From a virus, in the IMG/VR virus record IMGVR_UViG_3300043410_001190, positions 1-41,219 of that record: a stretch of 41,219 bases of DNA. One strand, 5' to 3'. The notes under the pieces were generated by a model, which saw only the letters and a list, made by a program, of their open reading frames with translations, had not been told where the DNA came from and searched no databases. How positions within the stretch are numbered: position 1 is the first letter of the stretch; each line of letters opens with the position of its first letter. The position numbers and the translations under genes are program-made. Of the stretch, positions 6,118 to 29,809 are shown one piece after another.

Positions 6118-9100
6118 TTATGCTGTTCTTGTCCATAGATATGAACGTGATATACCTTCATTTGATCCTGATTTACCTAGACAACGATATGTGCCTGTTG
6201 GTGCTTTTGTGACAAATGAGTCAGTGTAGATTGAGTCAGTAACAAATCCAGCCTGAGTTACCCCACTGACGGTACAAATAAAAATTCTACCTTTATACAT
6301 GACACTACCGGATATGTTAGTACCATTGCTAGCAACAGGATGATATGTCCAACTTGTGCCATTAGTAGATGTTATCATTGAGCCCGCATCACCGACTATA
6401 ACAAAATAACTACCAGTCCACATAACATGTTCTAAAAGTTGAGTAGTATATTGAGTATTTGTTCTATCAGTCCAAGTAACACCATCCGGGCTACTAACAA
6501 TATTGCCACTAGCGCCTACTGCTACCCACATTGAATTACCCCATGTAACCCAGTAAAATAAGACAGACACTGGTGAAGTTCTAGAGGTCCATGTAGTGCC
6601 GTTTGTTGATGATAGGATTACGCCAGTTGAGCCTACTGCTATTGCCATACTGCCGTTCCAATAAACACCATTTAAGTTACTACTTGTGCCGCTTGTTCTA
6701 GAGGTCCAAGTAGTACCATCTGGACTAGTAATAATAGTACCAGTATTACCAACAGCAATGAATAGTGTGCCAGTCCAGGTAACTGCTTTTAATCCCTGTA
6801 CGGTACCACTGGTTTGTGTAGTCCAGTTAGTACCATCGGTTGATGTAATGATTTTACCACTTTCACCAACTGATACCCATAGATTATTAGCAAAAGTAAT
6901 ATCACGTAAAATAACAGTAGATCCACTTAACTGTTGGGTCCATATTACTCCATCAGTTGATTTGTACATGTTAGCTTGTGATGATGATGGGAATAAACTA
7001 CCAACACCAATTATTGTGTTACCATCAGTAGCAAATTTATTAATACTACTTTGTCCACGAACATCCGCGTATTTAAAATATGAACCAGTATCAGTTGGAG
7101 TATAGGTAGAACCTGGTGTTATATCTGCCGCTACGTATCCAGTGAATAGATCACCAACAGCAATATTAGCAGTAGAAGTCCAAGCAACGCCTGGTCCGCC
7201 ACTACCGCCGCCGGTTTGTGCTACCCAACTGCCATTACCAGCTAGTACTTGACTGCTATTACCATTTAAGTTAATATTAGCAATGTTACCTAAGCCACTG
7301 ATGTTAGCAAGGGAAACTGTTCCCACTGTTGCCGCATATTGAGCATTAGCAACTATTCCAGTAACATTAGCACCACTAACAGTATTAGCACTTGCTGCTA
7401 CTGTAGCACTATTTGCGGTGTTAGCACTACTTGCGTATAAAACACCAGTGATATTAGCACCATTACCGCTAATAGTATTAGCAACGATGTTACCGATTGT
7501 AATTGTATTATTAGGAGCAGTTACAGCTGGATCACCGCCTAAAGATAAGCCACCGCCGCTGTTTTCACTAATAGCAACGCCGCCAACAGTTAAGGAGTTA
7601 GGACCAACGTATATGTGGCGGAAACGACGAGATGGGCTACCTAAATCATATAGGTTATCGTTAATTGGAGTAATACTACCCTCTAGGGTAACGTTGTCTA
7701 ATAACTCAGTAGTTCCCTGTACAGAGAAACGATTATTAGCAATATCGTATGTAAGGTTAGCAGTTGCTCCTAGTACACCAGCATTATTAAATTGTAATTC
7801 GGAATTACTACCAGCAACAATACTAGGTACGCCAAATGTACCATTGCCGCGCAAGAATTGTGAACCGTTACCATTGAAGTTAGCATTAGCTACGTTACCA
7901 ATAGTTAGGGATGTACGTAGGGATGCCGCATTAGGTGTGTTAAGTGTAATAGTACCAGTACTTGTGATTGGACCACCAGTAACTGAGAAGCCAAGACCAC
8001 TGCCTGCTGTTGAGACACTTGTAACTGTACCTGTACCTACGTTGCCACTAGCTGTACTACCAATAGCACTTGCCGCAATGTCAATGTGATCGCCCACACG
8101 TAGATATGATGTCCATGTAAGTGTATTACCACTCAGGGAGAAGTTTGTTGGGTCTAAGTAAACACCGTTCTTATACACGTTCATATAATCGGTGCTTGGG
8201 TAATACGCTAGGTTAGCATTAACAAATGATTGACCACTACCAGCAGTAATAGCAGTAAACTCAATACGTGGAATAGCACGATAGTTTGTTAGGTTACCCC
8301 AACTAAGTCCGCCACTAGTATCACTTAATAAGACACTGCTGTTTGATGCGGCGCCAGTGATTGTTAGTTTTGTTACATCACCTAGGCTTAGTTTACTGCC
8401 GTCATATACTACGTTAGGTATGCCAGCAAATACACCGTTATTGTTGTATTGTAGTTGTGTTGTGATACCACCAGGGATACCACCACTGATAACTTCTGCC
8501 CATGCGCCCTGACCGTTTAGGTAGGTACCAGCATTGCCGTTGTAGTTTGTATTAGCAATATTACCAGTAGGAACAGGAATATTACTCCAGTTACCATCAC
8601 CACGTAAGTATTGAATAGTATTGCCATTTAGGTTAACGTTAGCAATGTTGCCGCCAGGGATCTGTAGTTCGCTAAATGTACCATCACCACGTAACCAGTG
8701 TGAGGTATTACCGTCTAAGTTTAAACCACCAACAGTACCAATGTTTGGTTGTGCTACTTGCGTGAATTGACCAACACCATTTAAGTAAGTAGTGCTATCA
8801 CCATTTAGGTTAAGTGTACCAACCGAACCAACAGGTTTAGCACCGGTACTAGTAGCACCAACAGTAATGGTATCGCCAGCAAATAACTGAATGAATAAGG
8901 ATAGGACGTTATTTTGAATTTGATAGTCGCCGCTATCAACAAGGACACCGTTACGGAATACTTGTGCGTATGTACCATCAGCAAATAGGTCTAAATCGTT
9001 ATTAGCAAAAGATTGACCAGCGCCTGTAGTTGTGACAGCAAATTTAATTTGTGGTTGTGCTCGTTGTGTGGTCTCTTTGAATGTTAGTTGACCAACTTCA

Positions 9101-20147: not shown

Positions 20148-20709
20148 TGTTTTCTTTCAGTTGTAATTCCTGTAACTGTAGTGCGATTTCATCTACAGTA
20201 GTGTCCTGTTGGACGTTCATATCTACTTGAGTAGTAGGTTTGCCCACTACCCGATCCCATACAGCCATAAGTGCGTTTTGATCACGCTCCTCAATAGCTT
20301 TCTGTAGAATGACCTGTGCTGCTAGGTGTAATTCCCGCAGCCATTCATCCTTATTTTGATTTATCAGTTCCTCTGACGCCTTGCGAATTTGTTGTGATAA
20401 GGCACGGTGCATCATTTTACCTGCGATTTCTTCTGTTGGTACTTGTTTCATATATTCCCATTTAGGATTGCGGCCAGTTTCAGCCAACGCTTTAGTGCGT
20501 TCTACCAGTAGTTCGCTATTCTTACGACGATTAGCCCCAGCGTTAGCAATGTGTTCGGGCGACTGCTTGCGACCAAGACATACCTGTAGATCAGGTCTGG
20601 TAATAGGACGGGCAGGCACCTTGATGAGTTCACCTTTACTATTGGTGTAACTGTATGCTCGGCCCCATGGTACTGGTGTTTCTTGCATGCAATTATTTAG
20701 TGTTACCAT
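20086..20709 (-). CDS. Putative terminase small subunit
   Basis: 207 aa. Charged and helical after an N-terminal basic segment (KVPARPITRPDLQVCLGRKQ and SPEHIANAGANRRKNSELL). The central helices (EIAGKMMHRALSQQIRKASEE, AAQVILQKAIEERDQNALMA) followed by VWDRVVGKPTTQVDM resemble the end of many small terminases. The tail is acidic and disordered (ESNTRRDDNDTTDTTP). Position ahead of the large subunit supports recognition of the packaging start. An in-frame ATG at 20688 is an alternative start; neither has a clear ribosome site, and a leftward terminator lies just upstream, so expression may need read-through. Confidence 0.65.
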   Translation of the reverse strand: MVTLNNCMQETPVPWGRAYSYTNSKGELIKVPARPITRPDLQVCLGRKQSPEHIANAGANRRKNSELLVERTKALAETGRNPKWEYMKQVPTEEIAGKMMHRALSQQIRKASEELINQNKDEWLRELHLAAQVILQKAIEERDQNALMAVWDRVVGKPTTQVDMNVQQDTTVDEIALQLQELQLKENNGKDESNTRRDDNDTTDTTP

Positions 20710-20757
20710 AGGAAAACCGTATTTTTAGTGGTGGCGCCTGCAGGATTGAATATGGAA

Positions 20758-20784
20758 AGAAAAATGGCCCAATGCTAGGGGCCA
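20758..20784 (-). terminator. Rho-independent terminator upstream of terminase operon
   Basis: Minus strand: TGGCCC pairs with GGGCCA across an 8-base loop, followed by TTTTTC. The sequence CCATTTTTCTTTCC of its arm and tail is repeated exactly in the leftward terminator at 25809-25846. It ends leftward transcripts from the early genes or from the CATAAATA motif at 20848. Confidence 0.75.
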
Positions 20785-20847
20785 CTTTCTCCCGCAAGTA
20801 CCGAATTATACCGTTGGGCTGCTTCAAGCAGGAATCAATTTACTGTT

Positions 20848-20855
20848 TATTTATG
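20848..20855 (-). promoter_or_regulatory. CATAAATA late-promoter-like motif
   Basis: CATAAATA on the minus strand, about 65 bases before the terminator at 20758-20784 and 140 bases before the small terminase gene. It may drive the packaging genes by read-through or a short RNA. Confidence 0.4.
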
Positions 20856-21272
20856 AGGCCGAAAATGTAACCGCGTTTTTGTGGTGGACTAGGAACCATA
20901 CGGAAATTTTATATGGTGAAAAAACTTCAGACTGTCGGCTCGTGCGCACGGTGAGTCCTGCCAACTGTCGCTAACAGTAGCATGATAGAGCCTAGCAAGG
21001 ACCGTGCCCGACGCTACACACTCAAGCGTGTAGTACGGTAGTATTATAGTAGTTAAGTATTACATATGGTGGTTGCCGTCATCCTTTCTATATCGTGTCT
21101 CATTGTAGCATATTATTGTCCGCCTGTCAAGTACACTATAAGTATTACAATAACCATACAGTGGACAACAGTAGTACTATTGTAGTAGGCACGCTGTTAC
21201 ACGCTCAATGAAGCGTACTTTAGCGTGCCACTATGGTTGGCGGCTGAGCGTTTAGTATTCTTTATTAGTGTA

Positions 21273-21357
21273 ATTGTATACAATAGTTTACTGTTTGCTA
21301 CTGTCCTCCTAGAATCCGCCGCAAATTGTATACAAAATAGCTACAAATTGTATACAA
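21273..21357. repeat. Three TTGTATACAA palindromes (operator-like)
   Basis: Perfect 10-bp palindromes TTGTATACAA at 21274-21283, 21326-21335 and 21348-21357. The last two share CAAATTGTATACAAAA. Starts are 52 and 22 bases apart, close to five and two DNA turns, so a dimeric regulator could bind on one face. No regulator gene is visible in the window. Confidence 0.75.
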
Positions 21358-21376
21358 AACTGGGCTGCGCGGAAGA

Positions 21377-21391
21377 TGAGAATAATTCTCA
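21377..21391. promoter_or_regulatory. Fur-box-like 7-1-7 palindrome
   Basis: TGAGAATAATTCTCA is a perfect 7-1-7 inverted repeat and differs from the classical Fur core TGATAATNATTATCA by one base in each half; TGAGAAT half-sites are common in real Fur sites. It lies 11 bases after the stop of the 53-aa gene. It might instead be a weak hairpin at the end of that transcript. Confidence 0.4.
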
Positions 21392-21402
21392 TTTACATTA
21401 AT

Positions 21403-21564
21403 TCATAGGGTTTCGTCCGCTCTGTTGATGAAGATTAATGCGTCTTGTAGATGAGAACGAGCCTGTTGAACATCGTCGTTATCTATATCATATATTAAAG
21501 AACACAGTTCTTCTGCCAGATGGCGAATGTCAGTGATTGCGTGTGCGATTTCTGTTGTAGTCAT
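21403..21564 (-). CDS. Small helical early protein (53 aa)
   Basis: 53 codons plus stop starting MTTTEIAHAITDIRHLAEEL and ending IFINRADETL. It is alpha-helical and acidic, with no known domain. AGGGA precedes the ATG by eight to nine bases. It follows the 165-aa gene by 22 bases and is probably in the same transcript from the promoter at 22114-22142. Codon structure and the ribosome site support it. Confidence 0.65.
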   Translation of the reverse strand: MTTTEIAHAITDIRHLAEELCSLIYDIDNDDVQQARSHLQDALIFINRADETL

Positions 21565-21586
21565 GGTTATAGTCCCTGTATTGTGA

Positions 21587-22084
21587 TTAATAGTCGTAGC
21601 AATCTAAGAATTCACTGCGAGTAGGCTCATCCAGCATATCAGCAATGTTCATGTAGTGAGTATCAAAGTCAGTGCGCCACCATTTAGCTTCTAAGTATGC
21701 ATATGCGATGCCGTATCTGTCGCTGTCGCTTCTGCGTTGTGATAGTGAACGACGACGAAGAATACGGCGAGAGCGGGCATCACTGATAAATTGAGCATAT
21801 ACGCTAATTCTGTGTGTATTGCGTACATCATTAAGTTCACAGTTGAGCGCCTTAGCAATCTGCTTAGTTGCTACGAGTTCTGCGTCACTGTATGAGTATG
21901 CTTCTAGCGTGAAGTTATTATACCCTAGTTGAGCGATTGCTTGATTGTATGCTTGCTTCTGCTGAGCGAAGATAGCATCTCTCACGCCTGGCTCGTTCTG
22001 CTGTGCGTAAGTAAGACCAGTAGCGCCACTGTCGTTTGCAGTTGAGAGCTTGATTGTGTATGTGAATTTAGCGATTTTAGGCAT
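21587..22084 (-). CDS. Unknown early protein (165 aa)
   Basis: 165 aa, not recognised. Residues 1-60 include beta-like FTYTIKLSTAND and helical GVRDAIFAQQKQAYNQAIAQ. A basic patch RSRRILRRRSLSQRRSDSD lies at about residues 104-122 and could contact nucleic acid. The C-terminus is acidic with aromatics (MLDEPTRSEFLDCYDY). AAGGA is about eight bases ahead of the ATG and a near-consensus sigma70 promoter about 30 bases further. Short size, own host-type promoter and position suggest an early gene that acts on the host or on regulation. Confidence 0.7.
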   Translation of the reverse strand: MPKIAKFTYTIKLSTANDSGATGLTYAQQNEPGVRDAIFAQQKQAYNQAIAQLGYNNFTLEAYSYSDAELVATKQIAKALNCELNDVRNTHRISVYAQFISDARSRRILRRRSLSQRRSDSDRYGIAYAYLEAKWWRTDFDTHYMNIADMLDEPTRSEFLDCYDY

Positions 22085-22113
22085 TTTAGTGTCCTTGTTG
22101 AGTTGATGTGTTA

Positions 22114-22142
22114 ATTATAGCTGAGTTTAGAGATAAAGTCAA
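22114..22142 (-). promoter_or_regulatory. Strong sigma70 promoter of the 165-aa early gene
   Basis: Minus strand TTGACT (22137-22142), 17-bp spacer, TATAAT (22114-22119). It is followed by a leader CATCAACTCAACAAGGA which is also present behind the promoter at 22734-22762. Confidence 0.88.
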
Positions 22143-22168
22143 GTGTTTTTTTAATGTATTGGGCCATT

Positions 22169-22702
22169 TTAGGCGGCTCGTCTAAACAATTCTGTGTACT
22201 TTAGCATTAATACAGTGAGAACTGCGTCTGATGCAGAATTCTCTAGTAAATGTGCGAATTCACGATAAGGATCGTTGTTGCCGTAGCACTCAATGTAATC
22301 ATCTACAATACGAATGAACAAGTCAACATTGTTCTTCTCTTGCTCGTCATAACCGTCGTTGTTCATAGTATCTAGCTCTATTGATAAGCTAGTGAATGTC
22401 TGCCAAATGGGCATTGTGCCTAGATGTGTGTCTATGTAATCTTGTAGTGAGTGTTTAAAGTCGCTGTTCATGTCTGCTACCCAGCTATCTTCTTGTATGT
22501 CTAAGAACATCATATATCCGTCTGTGTCTGTGTCTTCATAGTGAAGCATATCTGTGATTGCCGCCGCATACAGCTGGTCTTCTGCTTTAGCGTTGCTGAC
22601 TTGTGCTATTTTGTATAGCTTGGCGTCAATAGCGTCAATAACTTCACGAGGAATGTCCCAGCAAGGCGCTGTATAGATTAATGCGAAGTCGTGTTTGTTC
22701 AT
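22169..22702 (-). CDS. Unknown acidic early protein (177 aa)
   Basis: 177 aa from the start MNKHDFALIYTAPCWDIP. An open frame continues 36 codons further upstream, but that stretch contains the promoter at 22734-22762, so the internal start is chosen. The protein is very acidic (EDTDTDGYMMFLDIQEDSW, DYIECYGNNDPYREF), with many Asp/Glu and Tyr and no known domain. Acidic small early phage proteins are often DNA mimics or host inhibitors, but nothing here proves that. It has the same promoter-leader arrangement as the 165-aa gene, so both should be expressed together early. Confidence 0.7.
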   Translation of the reverse strand: MNKHDFALIYTAPCWDIPREVIDAIDAKLYKIAQVSNAKAEDQLYAAAITDMLHYEDTDTDGYMMFLDIQEDSWVADMNSDFKHSLQDYIDTHLGTMPIWQTFTSLSIELDTMNNDGYDEQEKNNVDLFIRIVDDYIECYGNNDPYREFAHLLENSASDAVLTVLMLKYTELFRRAA

Positions 22703-22733
22703 ATAAATTTGCCTGTTGAGTTGATGAGTTATA

Positions 22734-22762
22734 AGTATAACTGATTTATGAGTTTGCGTCAA
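22734..22762 (-). promoter_or_regulatory. Strong sigma70 promoter of the 177-aa early gene
   Basis: Minus strand TTGACG (22757-22762), 17-bp spacer, TATACT (22734-22739), then CATCAACTCAACAGG as leader. It is divergent from the promoter at 22821-22849. Confidence 0.85.
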
Positions 22763-22820
22763 CACATTTGTAACTATTGGAACTGTAGGTTGATAGCAAA
22801 ATACAATCACAGAAAAAGTT

Positions 22821-22849
22821 TTGAGCGTAAACTTTTGACTAAATATTAT
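22821..22849 (+). promoter_or_regulatory. Probable sigma70 promoter of the glycosyltransferase pair
   Basis: TTGAGC (22821-22826), 17-bp spacer, TATTAT (22844-22849) on the plus strand. It would give a leader of about 175 bases ahead of the 23032 start, containing the terminator-like hairpin at 22964-22987. Confidence 0.55.
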
Positions 22850-22963
22850 TGTGAATGGCGCCCGATAGTACCATTTACTGAGTGAGTAGTACTTTTGCGC
22901 TAATTGAGTACCTTCTACTTACGGTGTAATACTTTTCACTTACTTTTTACAATATGAAATCTC

Positions 22964-22987
22964 GGGGCTCTGGTAGCCCTATTTTTG
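22964..22987 (+). terminator. Terminator or attenuator in the glycosyltransferase leader
   Basis: GGGCT (22965-22969) pairs with AGCCC (22975-22979) around a 5-base loop, followed by TATTTTTG. It sits between promoter and first gene, so it may attenuate transcription. It also argues against the ATG at 22954, whose first codons would lie over it. Confidence 0.55.
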
Positions 22988-23031
22988 TATCTTGTAACCT
23001 ACCTAACCTCCAAATAGGAAACCAATTCGCT

Positions 23032-23208
23032 ATGGACGATATAGATTATATACCTGGTAACATTGAATTTGCCGTAATGGATTTACAGCAGTTAATTGAG
23101 GATGAGATTGGGGCCAAACGCATGACTAGGCAAGATGTATTTGCCTTGATGGAATTCCAGGAGTTCTTGAATGAGTTGTATGTCCATGATATTATGGGGG
23201 ACGACTAA
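23032..23208 (+). CDS. Small acidic protein ahead of glycosyltransferase
   Basis: 58 aa from MDDIDYIPGNIEFAVMD to YVHDIMGDD. An in-frame ATG at 22954 would add 26 residues, but those overlap a terminator-like hairpin and look non-coding; TAGGAA lies ahead of the chosen start. Mostly helical and acidic (LQQLIEDEIGAKRMTRQD, MEFQEFLNELYV). Its stop overlaps the glycosyltransferase start (TAATG), so the two are co-translated. Function unknown; possibly a partner of the enzyme. Confidence 0.6.
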   Translation: MDDIDYIPGNIEFAVMDLQQLIEDEIGAKRMTRQDVFALMEFQEFLNELYVHDIMGDD

Positions 23209-24278
23209 TGCGTATCCTAATGCCAATTGTGGGAACTAATGATATCATCAAACGTGGTGTTATCAGCGGTGGTATTGAGCGATTCCAGTACTCGGTGTAT
23301 CACAACATAGATGGTGTTGTGCCTGTGTATATCAATAAAGCAGATAAGCTACATGGTTGTGAAACTACTATTGACAGGGCTGTTGAAGAGGTGAGACCGG
23401 ATATTATCTTTACTAATCATATGAATGCCAAGTTGAGTAAGAACTTAGACAGGTATGGTATCAAGCAGGTCCATGTCCATCACGAGCCAATTGAGCGCAA
23501 TAATCACATCTTGAAAACTTGTGAGAACTTGTTGAGAACCGCGGATAATGGCGCGGATATCTACTTTGTTAGTGAATTACAGTGGGAGTTCTATGACCAT
23601 CATTGTAAACGATTGTTGGGCCGTTCGCTTGGTAATATTTGTGGGTTTATCAACCCTGCTTATAGCGATAGTAGTAGTGGGCCTAGGGATATTCGGTGGA
23701 ATGTAGGTACTATTGGTAGATGTATTCCTAGTAAAGATCCATTCTGGGTCCACCGCAAGTTTAAGAATACTGACCTTACTACACTGGTTATGACTAGCCG
23801 TCAGGATACTTACAAGAGTACCGCTATCCCTGAGTATATTAGGCGTAATAGCGCGTGGAGTGATAGAGCAACTACCACGTGGGGTGGGGTTCACCAGGAT
23901 AATATGCGTATGTTATCGGAGTGTGGTAGTTTTGTTAGTACGTGGGCACTGGAAAGCTGGGGTATTACGGCACTTGAGGCACTCAGTAATGGTGTACCTA
24001 CGATATTGTTATGTGATGGCAGTGGCCGACATGCTAGTGAAAGTATTGCTGCCGATAGCAATCATATTATAAAGCTAAAGAAGAGCACACCAGTAACTGA
24101 ATTAGTGGGTGTTATTAGGGATTTAAATAGCATGAGTAGAAGTGATAGAGAGGCTATATCACTGGCTACGATGGCTAAGCATAGTCGTAAGGCATGGATT
24201 GATAGATTAAATGTGGTATTCCATAGTGCCATTGGCCGACATATGCCATTTAAAAACGAACTGTTCTCATTTGAATAA
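23208..24278 (+). CDS. GT-B fold glycosyltransferase (GT4-like)
   Basis: 356 aa. N-terminal domain with SGGIERF at residues 20-26, the Gly-rich turn typical of GT4-type enzymes, and VHVHHEPIERNNH. The linker and second domain begin at VGTIGRCIPSKDP. ESWGITALEALSNGVPTILL has the E-x7-E signature that binds the sugar-nucleotide donor. The donor sugar and acceptor cannot be read from sequence; options are phage DNA bases, the host surface glycan or a virion protein. GGGGGA seven bases ahead is a good ribosome site. The gene is in the accessory island, not in the virion operons, and converges with the 139-aa gene with a 12-base overlap. Confidence 0.85.
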   Translation: MRILMPIVGTNDIIKRGVISGGIERFQYSVYHNIDGVVPVYINKADKLHGCETTIDRAVEEVRPDIIFTNHMNAKLSKNLDRYGIKQVHVHHEPIERNNHILKTCENLLRTADNGADIYFVSELQWEFYDHHCKRLLGRSLGNICGFINPAYSDSSSGPRDIRWNVGTIGRCIPSKDPFWVHRKFKNTDLTTLVMTSRQDTYKSTAIPEYIRRNSAWSDRATTTWGGVHQDNMRMLSECGSFVSTWALESWGITALEALSNGVPTILLCDGSGRHASESIAADSNHIIKLKKSTPVTELVGVIRDLNSMSRSDREAISLATMAKHSRKAWIDRLNVVFHSAIGRHMPFKNELFSFE

Positions 24279-24686
24279 ATCCAACACCAATTTGGGTTGT
24301 TGAGGCCCAGACCGGTGTGATGAGTTATTGTACCAGTCGGGGAATTGTGGGAATTTGAGTGTTAGGTCTTTACGAAGCGGATTGGATGGGATCCTCCAAT
24401 CTACTGCGAATGTTGCTAATAGCTCCACAGGGCATTGGAGCATTAGTCCGTATTGCCGGCCTTTGATATTATATTGCTTGAACTTACCGAGTGGGTGAGT
24501 TCTGTCAAATAGGTATTGGAATTCACCTGGTGTGATAGTGCCGTGTTCCTGATAGTGTTCTAGCATTTTGATTAATCTATGTAGGCCGACGGTGTCTACG
24601 CCGTTCCGTTCCATTGTTGCGTAGCGTTCTAAGACAGAACAAAAATATTCTTCTATTGTGTTTAGTTGAGTTTGGTTTGGTAACAT
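24267..24686 (-). CDS. Unknown protein (139 aa)
   Basis: 139 aa, not recognised. The first half is helical (LNTIEEYFCSVLERYATMER, LHRLIKMLEHYQEHGTITPG); the second has PLGKFKQYNIKGRQYGLMLQ and a Pro/Trp-rich end (FPQFPDWYNNSSHRSGPQQP). A perfect AGGAGG lies six bases ahead of the ATG and a GATAAATA motif 28 bases ahead, so it is probably expressed late. Its last four codons overlap the end of the converging glycosyltransferase. Function unknown. Confidence 0.7.
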   Translation of the reverse strand: MLPNQTQLNTIEEYFCSVLERYATMERNGVDTVGLHRLIKMLEHYQEHGTITPGEFQYLFDRTHPLGKFKQYNIKGRQYGLMLQCPVELLATFAVDWRIPSNPLRKDLTLKFPQFPDWYNNSSHRSGPQQPKLVLDLFK

Positions 24687-24714
24687 GGAGTCCTCCTGCT
24701 GATTGTTGTAATAT

Positions 24715-24722
24715 TATTTATC
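24715..24722 (-). promoter_or_regulatory. GATAAATA late-promoter-like motif ahead of the 139-aa gene
   Basis: GATAAATA on the minus strand, 28 bases ahead of the ATG with AGGAGG in between. It is back to back with the rightward promoter of the large RNA. Confidence 0.6.
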
Positions 24723-24741
24723 CAAAACCTCAAAAAAACGC

Positions 24742-24778
24742 TTGACAAAAGGTGGATTCTGTTTATAATTGATAAATA
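24742..24778 (+). promoter_or_regulatory. Consensus sigma70 promoter overlapping a GATAAATA motif
   Basis: TTGACA (24742-24747), 16-bp spacer, TATAAT (24764-24769): both hexamers are perfect consensus. GATAAATA follows at 24771-24778, one base after the -10. The RNA downstream could thus be made by host polymerase early and by a T4-like late polymerase as well. This is the strongest promoter in the window. Confidence 0.9.
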
Positions 24779-25310
24779 CATTGTTGATAGCAATATTGAC
24801 GATGTTAGACAGTTAAATCAGTAAGACAGGAAAGGGTGATTGAAGACACCCTTTCCACCCCTCTTCAAAGGGCGTATTACTTAAAACTGTTGAACTACTG
24901 AATACTTTAACTGTTTAATGAGTTAGCATCGCTCCGAAGTATGCCGACATTCCGCTCTTGATATGCCCAGTACTGGGATTGTGGCGGTAGAAGACTAAGA
25001 ACAGAGTCCACTTCATAAGACTACCCATGGGAACATGGATGCCTCAAAGAGCGCTCCCGCTAAAGCAGAGAGAAAGCATCTTTCTTATGTCGTAATGGTA
25101 AGAGACAAACATTCTCATAAATCTAATAGGCACGGGCAATCCGTGACCATTCCGTTATAGATAACAAAACCCCTGACAGATTATCTTTAAAAATCGCTGA
25201 GCAATTGGTATGGAGCGAGCCCAACACGGAAACTATTAGTCATTAGCTTGGTATGCCGACGACGGTAAGAACAAAAGTTCCATATCCCCCTAGGAATAGG
25301 GGGTATGGTG
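24779..25310 (+). ncRNA. Candidate large structured non-coding RNA (about 530 nt)
   Basis: No gene fits here, but complementary segments do. Domain I: 24803-24823 pairs with 24896-24901 plus 24906-24920 (21 bp with G-U pairs and a 4-base bulge). Inside it, GGAAAGGGTG (24829) pairs with CACCCTTTCC (24847), a perfect 10-bp stem with 8-nt loop ATTGAAGA. The next hairpin, CCC/GGG, has loop TCTTCAAA, complementary to the first loop over 7 bases. Domain II: TCGCTCC (24929) with GGAGCGA (25212) closes a junction of CGACAT/ATGTCG (24945/25087), AATGGT/ACCATT (25094/25146) and AGATAA/TTATCT (25159/25181). Arms include CCATG-GGAA-CATGG (a GNRA loop), CCCA-GTAC-TGGG and CACGG/CCGTG. Domain III: GAAC/GTTC and CCATA-T-CCCCC/GGGGGTATGG (25280-25308). 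GTATGCCGAC occurs twice (24939, 25251). Size and phage context recall GOLLD and ROOL; no match claimed. The 3' end is uncertain. Confidence 0.7.
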
Positions 25311-25498
25311 TCTCTGGTAAGTGAGTAGATAAGTTAAGTGTTTTGACAGGAACAGATAAAAAATACGAGCGAACGGCAGTGAGTGAGTGTGTCTGTGAGC
25401 GAAGCGATAAGACACTGAATGGATGAATAAGTGGTAATAAAAAAGTTTAGGTGGCGCCAATGAATACTAAGTAGTTGTATCAATAGGAGATATAACAA
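25311..25498 (+). other. Leader between large RNA and DUF3820 gene
   Basis: No gene. Holds a GTGTCT/AGACAC hairpin (25389-25415) with a GAGCGAAGCG loop region, and a TTGACA at 25343 without a good -10 at normal spacing. No T-rich terminator separates the RNA from the gene, so the transcript may read through to 25796. Confidence 0.4.
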
Positions 25499-25768
25499 AT
25501 GGCAAAAATGAACTGGGACAATGTGCGTAGATACCGAGACGCAGAACACAGAGATGATACACGAATGGCTCGTATTCAGTGGAAAAAACACAAATATGAC
25601 GCAGTAGCAGATGAAGTAATGCCTTATGGCAAATACAAGGGATATTCAGTTAGAGCAGTACCTCAAGACTACTTAGATTGGGCAGTACAGAATATCAATC
25701 CCGACTTACCTCTCAGTAAGATGTTAGACAAAGAATGGCTCCGTCGCTATAATAAAAAGAACAAATAA
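25499..25768 (+). CDS. DUF3820-like small protein
   Basis: 89 aa. Basic N-terminal half (WDNVRRYRDAEHRDDTRMAR), then VMPYGKYKGYSVRAVPQDYLDW, which matches the DUF3820 pattern of (M/L)P(F/Y)GKYKG, followed by a P-x-x-YL-W motif. This motif is found in small phage and bacterial proteins and next to exonuclease domains; its role is not established. AGGAG lies nine bases ahead of the ATG. A strong terminator follows the stop codon. It sits directly downstream of the large structured RNA and might share its transcript. Confidence 0.8.
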   Translation: MAKMNWDNVRRYRDAEHRDDTRMARIQWKKHKYDAVADEVMPYGKYKGYSVRAVPQDYLDWAVQNINPDLPLSKMLDKEWLRRYNKKNK

Positions 25769-25770
25769 CA

Positions 25771-25796
25771 AAAGGCCCTAATATGGGCCTTTTTTG
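25771..25796 (+). terminator. Rho-independent terminator after DUF3820 gene
   Basis: AAAGGCCC (25771-25778), 6-base loop, GGGCCTTT (25785-25792) and more T. A clear rightward terminator, ending the transcript of the gene and possibly of the large RNA. Confidence 0.92.
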
Positions 25797-25808
25797 TGTT
25801 TATGTGTA

Positions 25809-25846
25809 GGAAAGAAAAATGGATCCTTTTTTAAGGGATCCATTTT
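25809..25846 (-). terminator. Leftward terminator with 11-bp stem
   Basis: AAAATGGATCC (25816-25826) and GGATCCATTTT (25836-25846) form a perfect 11-bp stem. On the minus strand it is followed by TTCTTTCC, and its CCATTTTTCTTTCC end is identical to the terminator at 20758-20784. Confidence 0.75.
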
Positions 25847-25969
25847 AATGGGGAATATCAGGCCCCGATAGGAGATATTAAAAGTACTGAGCGCTAGGAT
25901 CAGCATTGTATTTAGTCTCGCATGAACCTAACCGGAAATTTAGAAACTAATTCGCCATCGGCTGGGCAA

Positions 25970-26016
25970 AAAAATACCCCACTGGCTCAATCATCATAGG
26001 AAAAGTGGGGTATTTT
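25970..26016 (-). terminator. 13-bp inverted repeat, leftward terminator
   Basis: AAAATACCCCACT (25971-25983) and AGTGGGGTATTTT (26004-26016) form a perfect 13-bp stem with a 20-base loop. On the minus strand it is followed by more T (seven in all). It would stop leftward transcripts that run past 26955 or start at 26046. Confidence 0.7.
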
Positions 26017-26045
26017 CTAATCAGTTTTGTGTCATAATGGACCTA

Positions 26046-26053
26046 TATTTATC
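26046..26053 (-). promoter_or_regulatory. GATAAATA motif ahead of a leftward terminator
   Basis: GATAAATA on the minus strand, 30 bases before the terminator stem at 26016-25971. No gene follows, so the product would be a short RNA. Confidence 0.4.
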
Positions 26054-26203
26054 TACCGTATAGCAGAATAACTTTGGAAATGGATTAAATATAGTCAATC
26101 AACAAATACCAGTGGTATTTAAATCGGACAACAGTTTAATGAGGTGTCGCTCGGACAAACGATACAGAAATGCCTAAATGATACGCTTTTGTTTGTCTAC
26201 ATT

Positions 26204-26211
26204 TATTTATC
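26204..26211 (-). promoter_or_regulatory. GATAAATA motif in the hairpin-rich gap
   Basis: GATAAATA on the minus strand. Followed by GACAAAC/GTTTGTC and AAATACC/GGTATTT inverted repeats and, 190 bases on, the terminator at 26016-25970. Confidence 0.4.
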
Positions 26212-26224
26212 TCTTTTTGTGGAT

Positions 26225-26245
26225 ACTAAATAATAATACAAGGAG
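26225..26245 (+). promoter_or_regulatory. ACTAAATA motif and ribosome site for the 96-aa gene
   Basis: ACTAAATA (26225-26232) is 18 bases ahead of the ATG at 26251, with AAGGAG in between. It resembles the late motif, but this form also occurs inside genes. Confidence 0.35.
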
Positions 26246-26250
26246 ATAAC

Positions 26251-26541
26251 ATGACATACTCGTTTAGCAGCCATATGATACAACAATACTTGCTCTCACG
26301 GAGCGGTAAATCACAACAACAAATTATCCAAGAGATGAATGAGTTTTATGACCAGGCATGCTGGGATTTACAACTCACTAAATACAATAAGGTTAAGTCA
26401 GCAAAACTACGGGAGAACTTTCCTAAACCTGTTGTTAAACAACGTAAACCACGTGTGGTTAAACCGGTTAAACCCAAAGTTGTTATTAAAAAGCGCCGTA
26501 CCATTAGTCACATTCCACCTATTATGAAAGATGTAAAATGA
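26251..26541 (+). CDS. Small basic protein (96 aa)
   Basis: 96 aa. N-terminal helical part (FSSHMIQQYLLSRSGKSQQQ, EMNEFYDQACWDLQ), then a strongly basic tail of about 40 residues with VVKQRKPRVV, KPVKPKVV and KKRRTI, likely to bind nucleic acid. No known domain. AAGGAG lies six bases ahead of the ATG. The stop overlaps the next start (ATGA). Confidence 0.7.
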   Translation: MTYSFSSHMIQQYLLSRSGKSQQQIIQEMNEFYDQACWDLQLTKYNKVKSAKLRENFPKPVVKQRKPRVVKPVKPKVVIKKRRTISHIPPIMKDVK

Positions 26542-26954
26542 AATTAAAAACAGTCCTATCAGTAGCATTCTCTACTAACTTTAACCTATACTATATGGCA
26601 CATGCGGCGCATGTCAATGTGGTAGGTACCAACTTCTATCAGGATCATCTGTTATTTGAGCGTATCTACACGGATCTACAGGAACAGATTGATACCTATG
26701 CGGAGTTCTTACGTACTATTGATGGGTTTATGCCACCTAGTATCAAACAAGTGGTGAAAGAGTCAGTAGTGAGTGGCAGTATGGGTGATGAGATGATTAG
26801 TGAGTTGATTACAGCAAACAAGGCAATGATTGATTGCCTTGAAGTGTTGTATGAAACTGCTGAAGAGGAAGGTGAGTGTGGTTTATCTAACTACGCTCAA
26901 GATCGCTTAATTGCTCACAAAAAGCATCAATGGATGCTAAAATCTAGCCGATAA
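26538..26954 (+). CDS. Unknown protein (138 aa) coupled to the basic protein
   Basis: 138 aa, not recognised. Starts MKLKTVLSVAFSTNFNLYYM and is then mostly helical and acidic (YTDLQEQIDTYAEFLRTIDG, ELITANKAMIDCLEVLYETA). The beginning is mildly hydrophobic but a secretion signal is not convincing. Translationally coupled to the upstream gene. Its stop abuts, without a gap, the stop of the converging peptidase gene, and no terminator separates them. Confidence 0.65.
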   Translation: MKLKTVLSVAFSTNFNLYYMAHAAHVNVVGTNFYQDHLLFERIYTDLQEQIDTYAEFLRTIDGFMPPSIKQVVKESVVSGSMGDEMISELITANKAMIDCLEVLYETAEEEGECGLSNYAQDRLIAHKKHQWMLKSSR

Positions 26955-27947
26955 TTACTTACCAAAATATTCGCCTGCCATTGGGCCTAGTATACTGGCA
27001 GCGCCACCCACTACACGAGCTAGTGGATGTGGTGCCATAGCAGCAGCACTGCCTAATGCTCCAAGTCCATAACCAGCAGCGCGGGCATAATCATCATTCT
27101 TCCAAGCATTAATAGCTTCAGCTCCATTTAATCCACCCAATAAAACACCACCGGCTAAACCACCAAGACTATTGATTGCTGGTCTACCATTTTTTAATAT
27201 TGTAGGTGCGATTGCTTCACCAAATCTACCAGCTTTGCTTGGATTCACAGTAGTAGCACTTGGTCTACCTGATGGTGTTGTGGTTTGATAGAAATCTTTT
27301 GGCCCATTAGCAAATCCTTTAGCGGCATCAACTACAGCACTACCAACTTTACCAACAGCATGAGCGCCAGCAGCGCCAGCAGCAACTGTGCCTGCTTTTT
27401 CAAGTGGCGTCAATTGTTTAAATTCATTGCCTTGTTCTTTGGCAAATCCTAATGCTTTACCTATTGGTCCTTTAGCATCACCTTTTGGTTTCCATGATTG
27501 CGCGCCTTCACCATCACCTTTATTCCAACCTTCTGGGAATTGTTCTTTTAGGTATGCTTCGGCATCATCAATATCTTGCTGCGTTGGTGGTTCGGTACCT
27601 TCAAATGTAACTGATGGATAACCTTGAATATTGATTACATATTTTTGTGATTTTTTAGTATCGGACACTTGTTGATATCCTCCTTTAGGTTCCCAATGAA
27701 CAGGATCATTTTCATGAGGACGAGTCCATCCTTGTTTAGCCATCCATTGAGGATCTACCTGTGATGAATCAATAGCGTTAGCACTTTCATGTTTACTGGT
27801 ACCAGGCGCTGCCACAGGATACTTATTGTTAGCACGATTGGCATATAGTCGTGCTTGTTGTTCAGTAGTACGAGCGCCGCTGGTCATTGGTAGGTCAGTA
27901 CCAAAGTCACGACGATATGCTTGTTGAAGTTGTTCTATTGGTGTCAT
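26955..27947 (-). CDS. Virion-associated M15-type peptidoglycan peptidase
   Basis: 330 aa. Residues 1-90 show the LAS/VanY fold: SGARTTEQQARLY, then GTSKHESANAID giving zinc ligands His53 and Asp60, and DPVHWEP with His84 and Asp81 as probable base. The expected substrate is the peptide cross-link of the host cell wall. The remainder is not a classical endolysin: YPSVTFEGTEPPTQQDIDDA, then long Gly/Ala-rich, amphipathic segments (GTVAAGAAGAHAVGKVG, LGALGSAAAMAPHPLARV), like phage ejection proteins that insert into membranes. Being last in the ejection-protein operon, with a four-base overlap, it probably acts at entry. It could also serve in lysis, since no other lysin is visible. Confidence 0.8.
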   Translation of the reverse strand: MTPIEQLQQAYRRDFGTDLPMTSGARTTEQQARLYANRANNKYPVAAPGTSKHESANAIDSSQVDPQWMAKQGWTRPHENDPVHWEPKGGYQQVSDTKKSQKYVINIQGYPSVTFEGTEPPTQQDIDDAEAYLKEQFPEGWNKGDGEGAQSWKPKGDAKGPIGKALGFAKEQGNEFKQLTPLEKAGTVAAGAAGAHAVGKVGSAVVDAAKGFANGPKDFYQTTTPSGRPSATTVNPSKAGRFGEAIAPTILKNGRPAINSLGGLAGGVLLGGLNGAEAINAWKNDDYARAAGYGLGALGSAAAMAPHPLARVVGGAASILGPMAGEYFGK

Positions 27948-29809
27948 TGTACATTAATTGTAAAAGGTCTGCCACTTGATGTTTTACCACCAGATACTCC
28001 ACCGCCTTGAGTTTTACTACCAGGAGCACTAGGTGCTGCTGGCGGTTCTTTCTTCATGTTTGCTCGGTAAGCATCAAGTTGTTCTTTTGCTTGTTTGACA
28101 ATATCATTGCCAATATTGTCTTTATTTTTACGTGCCCAACTAGTGTAATCTGGTGTTCTACCAGCATCAAGCATAGCATCACGATACTTATCCCACTCTT
28201 GGGCAATTCGTTGATCTACTTTAGCGGCAGCATCGTCTAAAATCAACATCATATTGATAGTATCTGTTGTATTACCAGTAGTTGGCACACTTTGACGAAT
28301 TTGTTTTAGCTCAGCATCAGATTGAGCGCCTTTGAATCCAGCACTTTGAACAGCGCCGAATACTTTCTTGGCCATATATTTGTCTAGGAGTTCAGCATCA
28401 GCAATTGCTTGTTGTGACAATCCAGCACGCTTCAATTCGGCAATAGGTAAACGAATATCATAGTTACCAACTTTGACGCCTTCATTCATAGCAGTTAATG
28501 CTTGACGAACTAATGGATTACTTTCAGCTTGAATTAGGCCAGTTTTTAATTCACCACTTAGTATACTACGAATACCTTCGTTATCTGCTATTCTAGCAGT
28601 TGCTTTTTCTGCTAAGTCAGTAATTGCTACGTCTGCCTTTTCAGTTGTTTCAGCTACTTTCTTACCAAATGTACTAGCAGCTTCACGTTGTGTTGTAGCT
28701 GTAATACCTTTAGCGGCATCCTGATACATGCCATATTTGGTATTCATGTTTTGTATTTCATCAGGACTTAATGGTTGATTTGGACGATCATCTAAGGTAA
28801 TAACAGGTTGACCATTTAGGGTAGCACGTTGACCCATAGCCGCAACTTTACCATCTTTATCATACCAAGCAATTTGATTACCAGCAGTAATGTGGTTATT
28901 AGCTTGGCGACCTGTTAACTTAGTAAGTTCTTGCTCACGCTGTGCTATTTCCATCTGTGTCTTTAACAACAGTTGACGGAACCATGGTTTGTCTAGGCCA
29001 ACATCTGGTTGAGCGGCACGTTGTTGTACGCCAGTATAGTCCTCTGTTTCAATTGCCATTTGTAGGAGTTGTTGTGCTTTGTTGACTTCATCTGGTGTAA
29101 TGCCATACTTGTCAGCATACTTAGATAGGTTGCCACCCATGCGTTTCATGGTTTGTGTGCGAATATCACCATATAACTTATCATTAGTAGCAATTTGTTG
29201 TGCTTGCTCAATAGGCTTGAATGCTAGGTCAACTTGTTTGCTTTGTACTTTTTGTAGGCCTGTTTCATATGCTTTGACAAATGCTTTTGCGGCACCTTCA
29301 TAACCAGCACCGCTTGCTAAGGCAGCGGCCCATACTTTGTCTGCTTGTGCGGCAATACTATCTGGACTTGATCTGTAACCGCCAGTTAGCGCCTTTTTTA
29401 AAATTTGACCAAAACCTAAACCTTGTTCAGCATCATCATTCATCATTGTATTACCAGCTAAAGCCGCAGTCATTGCAGCACTACCAATGTTTTGTGGATC
29501 TTTAGGATATTCACCCTTTAACAATCTTTGTTCTTGTAAATTATATTTTTTAAGAATAACGTCTTTTGGTACATATTTTAAAATATCGCCACTAACCAAA
29601 GAACTAACATCACCATTAGCAACTTGTGTAGCAATTTCTTTTAGTTGATTTCTTGCTTCATCTACTTTGGATGAATCATTTAGATCAACTTTCATAGTGT
29701 CTGGTGTAGGAACTGGTGCTGGATTTACTGATGGCGCCAATGCTGGACCAGCCATGCCTGTAGCAGGGTTCCAACCACCACCAATATCAATGTTATCATT
29801 ATCTATCAT
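27944..29809 (-). CDS. Internal virion/ejection protein (621 aa)
   Basis: 621 aa, largely alpha-helical. It begins DNIDIGGGWNPATG, a motif found twice in the neighbouring upstream gene product. Long helical stretches (AKAFVKAYETGLQKVQSK, TQMEIAQREQELTKLTGRQ) and Ala/Gln-rich text resemble podovirus ejection proteins that form a channel into the cell. The C-terminus is Pro/Gly/Ser-rich. It overlaps both neighbours by four bases (ATGA), so it belongs to one translationally linked unit with the peptidase. No enzymatic motif seen. Function is inferred from place and composition. Confidence 0.65.
   Translation of the reverse strand: MIDNDNIDIGGGWNPATGMAGPALAPSVNPAPVPTPDTMKVDLNDSSKVDEARNQLKEIATQVANGDVSSLVSGDILKYVPKDVILKKYNLQEQRLLKGEYPKDPQNIGSAAMTAALAGNTMMNDDAEQGLGFGQILKKALTGGYRSSPDSIAAQADKVWAAALASGAGYEGAAKAFVKAYETGLQKVQSKQVDLAFKPIEQAQQIATNDKLYGDIRTQTMKRMGGNLSKYADKYGITPDEVNKAQQLLQMAIETEDYTGVQQRAAQPDVGLDKPWFRQLLLKTQMEIAQREQELTKLTGRQANNHITAGNQIAWYDKDGKVAAMGQRATLNGQPVITLDDRPNQPLSPDEIQNMNTKYGMYQDAAKGITATTQREAASTFGKKVAETTEKADVAITDLAEKATARIADNEGIRSILSGELKTGLIQAESNPLVRQALTAMNEGVKVGNYDIRLPIAELKRAGLSQQAIADAELLDKYMAKKVFGAVQSAGFKGAQSDAELKQIRQSVPTTGNTTDTINMMLILDDAAAKVDQRIAQEWDKYRDAMLDAGRTPDYTSWARKNKDNIGNDIVKQAKEQLDAYRANMKKEPPAAPSAPGSKTQGGGVSGGKTSSGRPFTINVQ

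Follow-up and report, generated by a model that had tools for sequence, protein, structure and literature searches.

The DNA analysed here (referred to as the window) is the whole 41,219-base virus record IMGVR_UViG_3300043410_001190, which has a G+C content of 41.8% and carries genes for a portal protein, a large terminase and a major capsid protein. An ORF-poor stretch lies between a reverse-strand gene (24267-24686) and a forward gene (25499-25768); the ORF list contains no frame of at least 50 amino acids between 24687 and 25289, in agreement with an earlier note that had described about 530 gene-free bases here as a possible new large and ornate RNA. Its placement of these bases directly behind the best promoter was also borne out, as TTGACA-16-TATAAT represents the only 12/12 match to the sigma-70 hexamers in the scanned interval (20600-27000). 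This promoter is preceded by ATCCAAAA, which, in an alignment, is also located upstream of the corresponding promoter of a sister phage (G002, described below). None of the small frames of the stretch showed a PHROG match; a coding role was thus rejected.

The first gene downstream encodes an 89-aa protein that resembles the C-terminal part of DnaQ-like exonucleases, and it is probably the gene served by the leader RNA described here. A scan found no intrinsic terminator between either the leader or positions 24921-25310 and this gene; the features of the locus are collected in Table 1. Other parts of the window were also noted, including a strong intergenic inverted repeat, ATACCCCACT...AGTGGGGTAT, at 25965-26020 (probably a terminator, judged by eye), a Dps/ferritin-like gene at 26538-26954 (Pfam Ferritin, 2e-16), which is located elsewhere in the genomes of the sister phages, and another ORF-poor stretch of about 690 nt (20710-21400; z -3.1 and -3.7 on the two strands), in which TGTATACAA palindromes near 21270-21360 mark a possible origin or operator region.

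Table 1. Features of the promoter, the leader and the adjoining region in the window
Feature	Position	Strand	Basis
Promoter, TTGACA-16-TATAAT	24742-24769	+	12/12 in scan; alignment with G002
AAATAC motif, after -10 box and ahead of first hairpin, common to G002	24773-24778	+	placed by eye, within 1 base
P1, 11-bp hairpin with GCAA cap, CATTGTTGATA-GCAA-TATTGACGATG	24779-24804	+	fold; G002 comparison
P2 closing stem, 5' strand	24805-24823	+	fold; complement count
P3, 10-bp hairpin, 8-nt loop ATTGAAGA at 24839-24846	24829-24856	+	complement count; loop test
Kissing strand 1, TTGAAGA, in P3 loop	24840-24846	+	7-bp perfect complement to 24862-24868
P4, short hairpin, CCC-(CTCTTCAAA)-GGG	24858-24872	+	fold; loop test
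Kissing strand 2, TCTTCAA, in P4 loop	24862-24868	+	perfect complement to 24840-24846
P2 closing stem, 3' strand: TACTGA, ATAC bulge, TTTAACTGTTTAA	24896-24918	+	fold; complement count
Remainder of the proposed large RNA; non-coding, chance-level fold, homologue-free	24921-25310	+	shuffles; homologue searches
First downstream gene, 89 aa, RBS AGGAG	25499-25768	+	Pfam QSregVF_b
Intrinsic terminator, likely transcript end	25770-25793	+	scan; nearest one downstream

Architecture and folding of the probable leader

The first ~140 nt behind the promoter (24779-24918) fold into a capped hairpin (P1) followed by a closing stem (P2) around two hairpins, P3 and P4, which are separated by a single A. 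The long closing stem, proposed earlier as a helix of 21 bp, was found, but its true length is 13 bp (24805-24817 with 24906-24918; 12 of 13 positions complementary or G-U) plus 6 bp (24818-24823 with 24896-24901), the two parts being separated by a 4-nt bulge. A second, weaker copy of the P2 partner, AACTGTTGAA, is located at 24885. The 10-bp hairpin of the earlier proposal corresponds to P3 and is a perfect complement (24829/24856), while P4 has only 2-3 bp. The P3 and P4 loops are complementary to each other over 7 nt; this pairing, absent from the helix list of the earlier note, is the third-longest perfect complement of the 5' domain, and a loop-loop complement of this length was reached by 0.05% of random trials with loops of 8 and 9 nt.

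To assess folding, z-scores were set against dinucleotide shuffles. The 5' domain (24779-24920) showed a z of -6.4, with none of 200 shuffles folding equally well (z -6.8 in a repeat run), and its reverse strand also folds well (z -5.0). It contains one 10-bp and one 9-bp perfect helix, as compared to a shuffle mean of 0.15 helices with at least 8 bp. The region as a whole (542 nt) reached a z of -4.2, which is carried by the 5' domain. On the other hand, the long-range junction proposed earlier was at chance level (24921-25230, z -1.1, 23 of 200 shuffles folding equally well; 24927-25219, z -1.7). Among 200-nt segments, the signal was located at 24700-25000, with a weak one at 25200-25400.

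All helices named earlier do exist as perfect complements, i.e., 24809/24914 (9-bp core), 24818/24901 (6 bp), 24929/25218 (7 bp) and the three inner helices 24945/25092, 25094/25151 and 25159/25186 (6 bp each), and the GNRA-capped arm was also found (CCATG-GGAA-CATGG). The junction holds 3 perfect helices with at least 7 bp, as compared to 1.96 +/- 1.35 in shuffled sequences, and 61 of 200 shuffles reach 3. Taken with its z-scores, these counts indicate that the listed long-range pairs are real, yet expected for a sequence of such length and composition. The claim that so many consistent pairings are unlikely by chance thus holds for the first ~140 nt and fails for the junction. Nested perfect helices picked out by eye over 300 nt may be due to chance; the true signal here was the loop-loop pairing.

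A counterpart in a sister phage

Relatives sought by TerL, portal, capsid, the downstream gene and helicase amounted to five sister contigs in all, the number also obtained by portal homology. Only one of the five, G002 (IMGVR_UViG_3300046779_001206; portal 76% and capsid 94% identical to those of the window), carries the leader. At 24424-24560, G002 presents a TATAAT box, AAATAC and the 12-mer TGATAGCAATAT, which is identical to the P1 core of the window and folds as the same GCAA hairpin, followed by a closing stem (13 bp, as compared to 19 bp in the window). This stem encloses two hairpins separated by one A, the first of 11 bp with TTTGGTCG as its loop and the second short, its loop containing GACCAA, so that the two loops are complementary over 6 nt (TTGGTC/GACCAA), as compared to 7 nt in the window. 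As this loop pair was noticed first in G002 and that of the window was found afterwards, the match in the window represents a confirmed prediction. Between the two phages, 8 of the 10 pairs of P3 and 3 of the 6 kissing pairs have changed on both sides, and none is broken. The G002 leader (24430-24560) also folds well on the transcribed strand (z -4.9; other strand, -1.6).

A descriptor of two adjacent hairpins with 6-nt loop complementarity gave 27 matches in 3.01 Mb of strand (72 with a looser version), with exactly one match each in the window and in G002, both within the leader. The pattern AAATAC..TGATAGCAATAT retrieved 48 stretches, among which, by eye, only that of G002 combined a TATAAT box with the plan of the leader downstream of it. 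In a genome-wide comparison, the 12-mer alone did not reach significance; what makes its sharing significant is its position after the -10 box. With filters off, a single-sequence covariance model of the window leader ranked G002 third (13.9 bits, E 0.22) and aligned P1, P3 and P4 to their counterparts, and the reciprocal G002 model scored 11.6 bits on the window (E 1.2); with default filters, covariance searches retrieved no other leader or further member. With two examples, the covariation represents a pairwise comparison rather than a family test, and the leader may be regarded, from these two sequences, as a provisional candidate family.

Behind the counterpart promoter of G003 lies only one long hairpin. 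In IMGVR_UViG_3300031758_000285 (complement of 6940-7019), TTGACA-17-TACAAT precedes TAAATACA, and the transcript would open with a single long hairpin, a simpler form of the way in which the leader begins. The G002 leader forms the 5' UTR of a VapE-like replicative helicase gene, which is followed by a primase-like gene. Upstream of it, at 24080-24343, are all eight CATACTGAT copies of the G002 record, likely an iteron-type replication origin or operator array.

Possible roles and comparison with known RNAs

Computed here were the statistical structure, the loop-loop complementarity and the retention of the plan, with compensating changes, in G002. We consider it fairly likely that positions 24779-24918 represent a structured 5' leader of ~140 nt at the start of a phage sigma-70 promoter transcript, with P1 followed by P2 enclosing the kissing P3 and P4, which acts in cis; most likely it serves in cis as the leader of an early phage operon (the promoter being early by inference), an mRNA leader being the most parsimonious reading. 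The leader would start at the transcription start, with the GNRA-capped P1 at the very 5' end, and P2 would close around the adjacent P3 and P4, whose loops would pair with each other. It would head an mRNA of ~1 kb encoding the 89-aa protein and presumably ending at 25793, and would act in cis, probably as the RNA emerges. It might modify elongation, by analogy with the HK022 put RNA, or govern the message of the first early gene through its stability or its translation; we place a cis effect on elongation, stability or translation ahead of the other readings and prefer none of the three.

Alternatively, the leader could act in replication control or attenuation, the 5' strand of P2 choosing between two downstream partners and thereby turning expression of the downstream gene on or off. 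In the window, both AACTGTTGAA (24885) and AACTGTTTAA (24909) can pair with 24809-24814, and TGAACTA of G002 has two possible partners as well, AGTTCGCA and, immediately ahead of the ribosome-binding site, TAGTTCA (7 bp); the CATACTGAT copies and the helicase gene on either side of the G002 leader also recall an iteron origin. We nonetheless regard such a switch as rather unlikely, as the alternative pairing in the window is short (6 bp, as compared to 9+6), no iterons were seen upstream of the window promoter, and no terminator follows the alternative fold of either leader. It is also quite unlikely that the locus holds no functional RNA element beyond a 5'-stabilizing hairpin, with the P3/P4 kissing match a coincidence in two phage leaders. 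A 5'-end hairpin alone is a common stabilizer of bacterial and phage mRNA, the sample is small, and the single-sequence covariance searches were not significant; against this, the kissing descriptor has a background of about one match per 110 kb of strand and both matches fall in the same ~150-nt slot, the P3 helix survives eight double changes, and both leaders fold well beyond their shuffles (z -6.4 and -4.9).

The earlier note had proposed a large RNA and homologue searches for it, which we ran on phages, plasmids, viral contigs and bacterial genomes. By blastn, phages and plasmids showed no homologues beyond chance, and the exact patterns TATGCCGAC..GGTAAGAACA retrieved no RNA homologue. 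The TATGCCGAC repeat pair at its native spacing found no stretch resembling the RNA in viral contigs and genomes; two of its matches proved on close reading to be coding DNA of a repetitive, tail-fibre-like kind. Overall, the motifs tested revealed no homologue of the junction in any of these four sources, and the 390 nt between leader and gene showed no relatives among the sister contigs; these 390 nt probably represent ordinary leader sequence that changes fast, or debris. A new class of non-coding phage RNA of large size (500-1000 nt), with the kissing leader as 5' domain and 24921-25310 as a second, tertiary-structured domain, would fit the whole-region z of -4.2, the length of ORF-free sequence that follows a strong promoter, the TCGCTCC/GGAGCGA closing pair (pairing probability near 1 in an isolated fold) and the occurrence of GTATGCCGAC twice, 312 nt apart, but is improbable given the second domain's z of -1.1 to -1.7 and chance-level helix count, the sister phage G002, which has the leader without the second domain and its gene ~30 nt past the closing stem, the lack of homologues of the motifs tested in the sources searched, and the lack of a terminator ahead of the 89-aa gene. 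The proposal of a new phage RNA thus stands in that a structured, non-coding and apparently undescribed RNA starts behind the promoter; it does not stand as to large size, which is unsupported past the leader. It also appears doubtful that 24779-25310 as a whole represents a single new class of large phage RNA, conserved at its kissing head, or that the leader is the founder of a new class of RNAs with which environmental phages achieve antitermination or replication control independently of protein.

The window gave no Rfam match at gathering score, and GOLLD, ROOL, OLE and HEARO, the families singled out earlier, gave none at E <= 10 in 24200-26260 and 24770-25330 either; at E up to 10, the latter interval yielded only two sub-threshold chance matches, neither credible. 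An identity as GOLLD, ROOL or another giant RNA is therefore unsupported. GOLLD and ROOL are large phage-encoded non-coding RNAs with kissing loops that form RNA nanocages (PMC12286853). They resemble the leader in being phage-encoded and non-coding and in having kissing loops, but they are much larger, are often located near tRNA islands and have many covarying helices (PMC12286853). They were rejected here, as no model matched, the 41-kb record contains no tRNA or tmRNA genes and thus no tRNA island, and 24921-25230 is at chance and without homologue. OLE was rejected by model, place and structure.

A group I intron was also rejected, as RF00028 did not match, while the same search finds one in the capsid gene of a relative. 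In two sister phages, IMGVR_UViG_3300017785_006982 (6959-7140) and IMGVR_UViG_3300031758_000285 (29567-29801), an insert of 235 nt splits the major capsid gene after ETNTGDEH; in the former it gives a match to the group I intron model (E 7e-6; 30.6 bits, below gathering). The capsid gene of the window has no such insert. Riboswitches of the purine type, with a three-way junction, share with the leader a closing stem around two hairpins with kissing loops, but their stem lengths differ, and the leader has a near-absent P3/P4 linker and a preceding hairpin; no Rfam match to this type and no ligand core were recognized.

An entire lytic programme can be controlled, without a protein, by structured leaders at the early promoters of a phage; to our knowledge, few such protein-independent phage leaders have been described, the textbook case being HK022 put. 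The nascent putL RNA suppresses pausing and termination, and put RNA, which is ~70 nt long and V-shaped with a triplex in stem I, binds the zinc-binding domain of the RNA polymerase beta' subunit (PMC9378689). In the window, two hairpins are likewise located directly downstream of a phage promoter that we infer to be early, and as a working analogy the leader may resemble put as a cis-acting nascent RNA with two hairpins with which an early phage transcript opens; blastn of the leader against phage records gave no relevant match. The two differ in that the hairpins of the window are enclosed by a closing stem, appear to pair through their loops and are preceded by a GCAA hairpin; the features seen for put include neither kissing loops nor a closing stem (PMC9378689). 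The particular plan is absent from Rfam and found no match in a limited literature search; a structured phage leader as such is a known kind of element, and a short one with a kissing pair, kept by compensatory changes in sister phages in front of different genes, offers a concrete and cheap test object.
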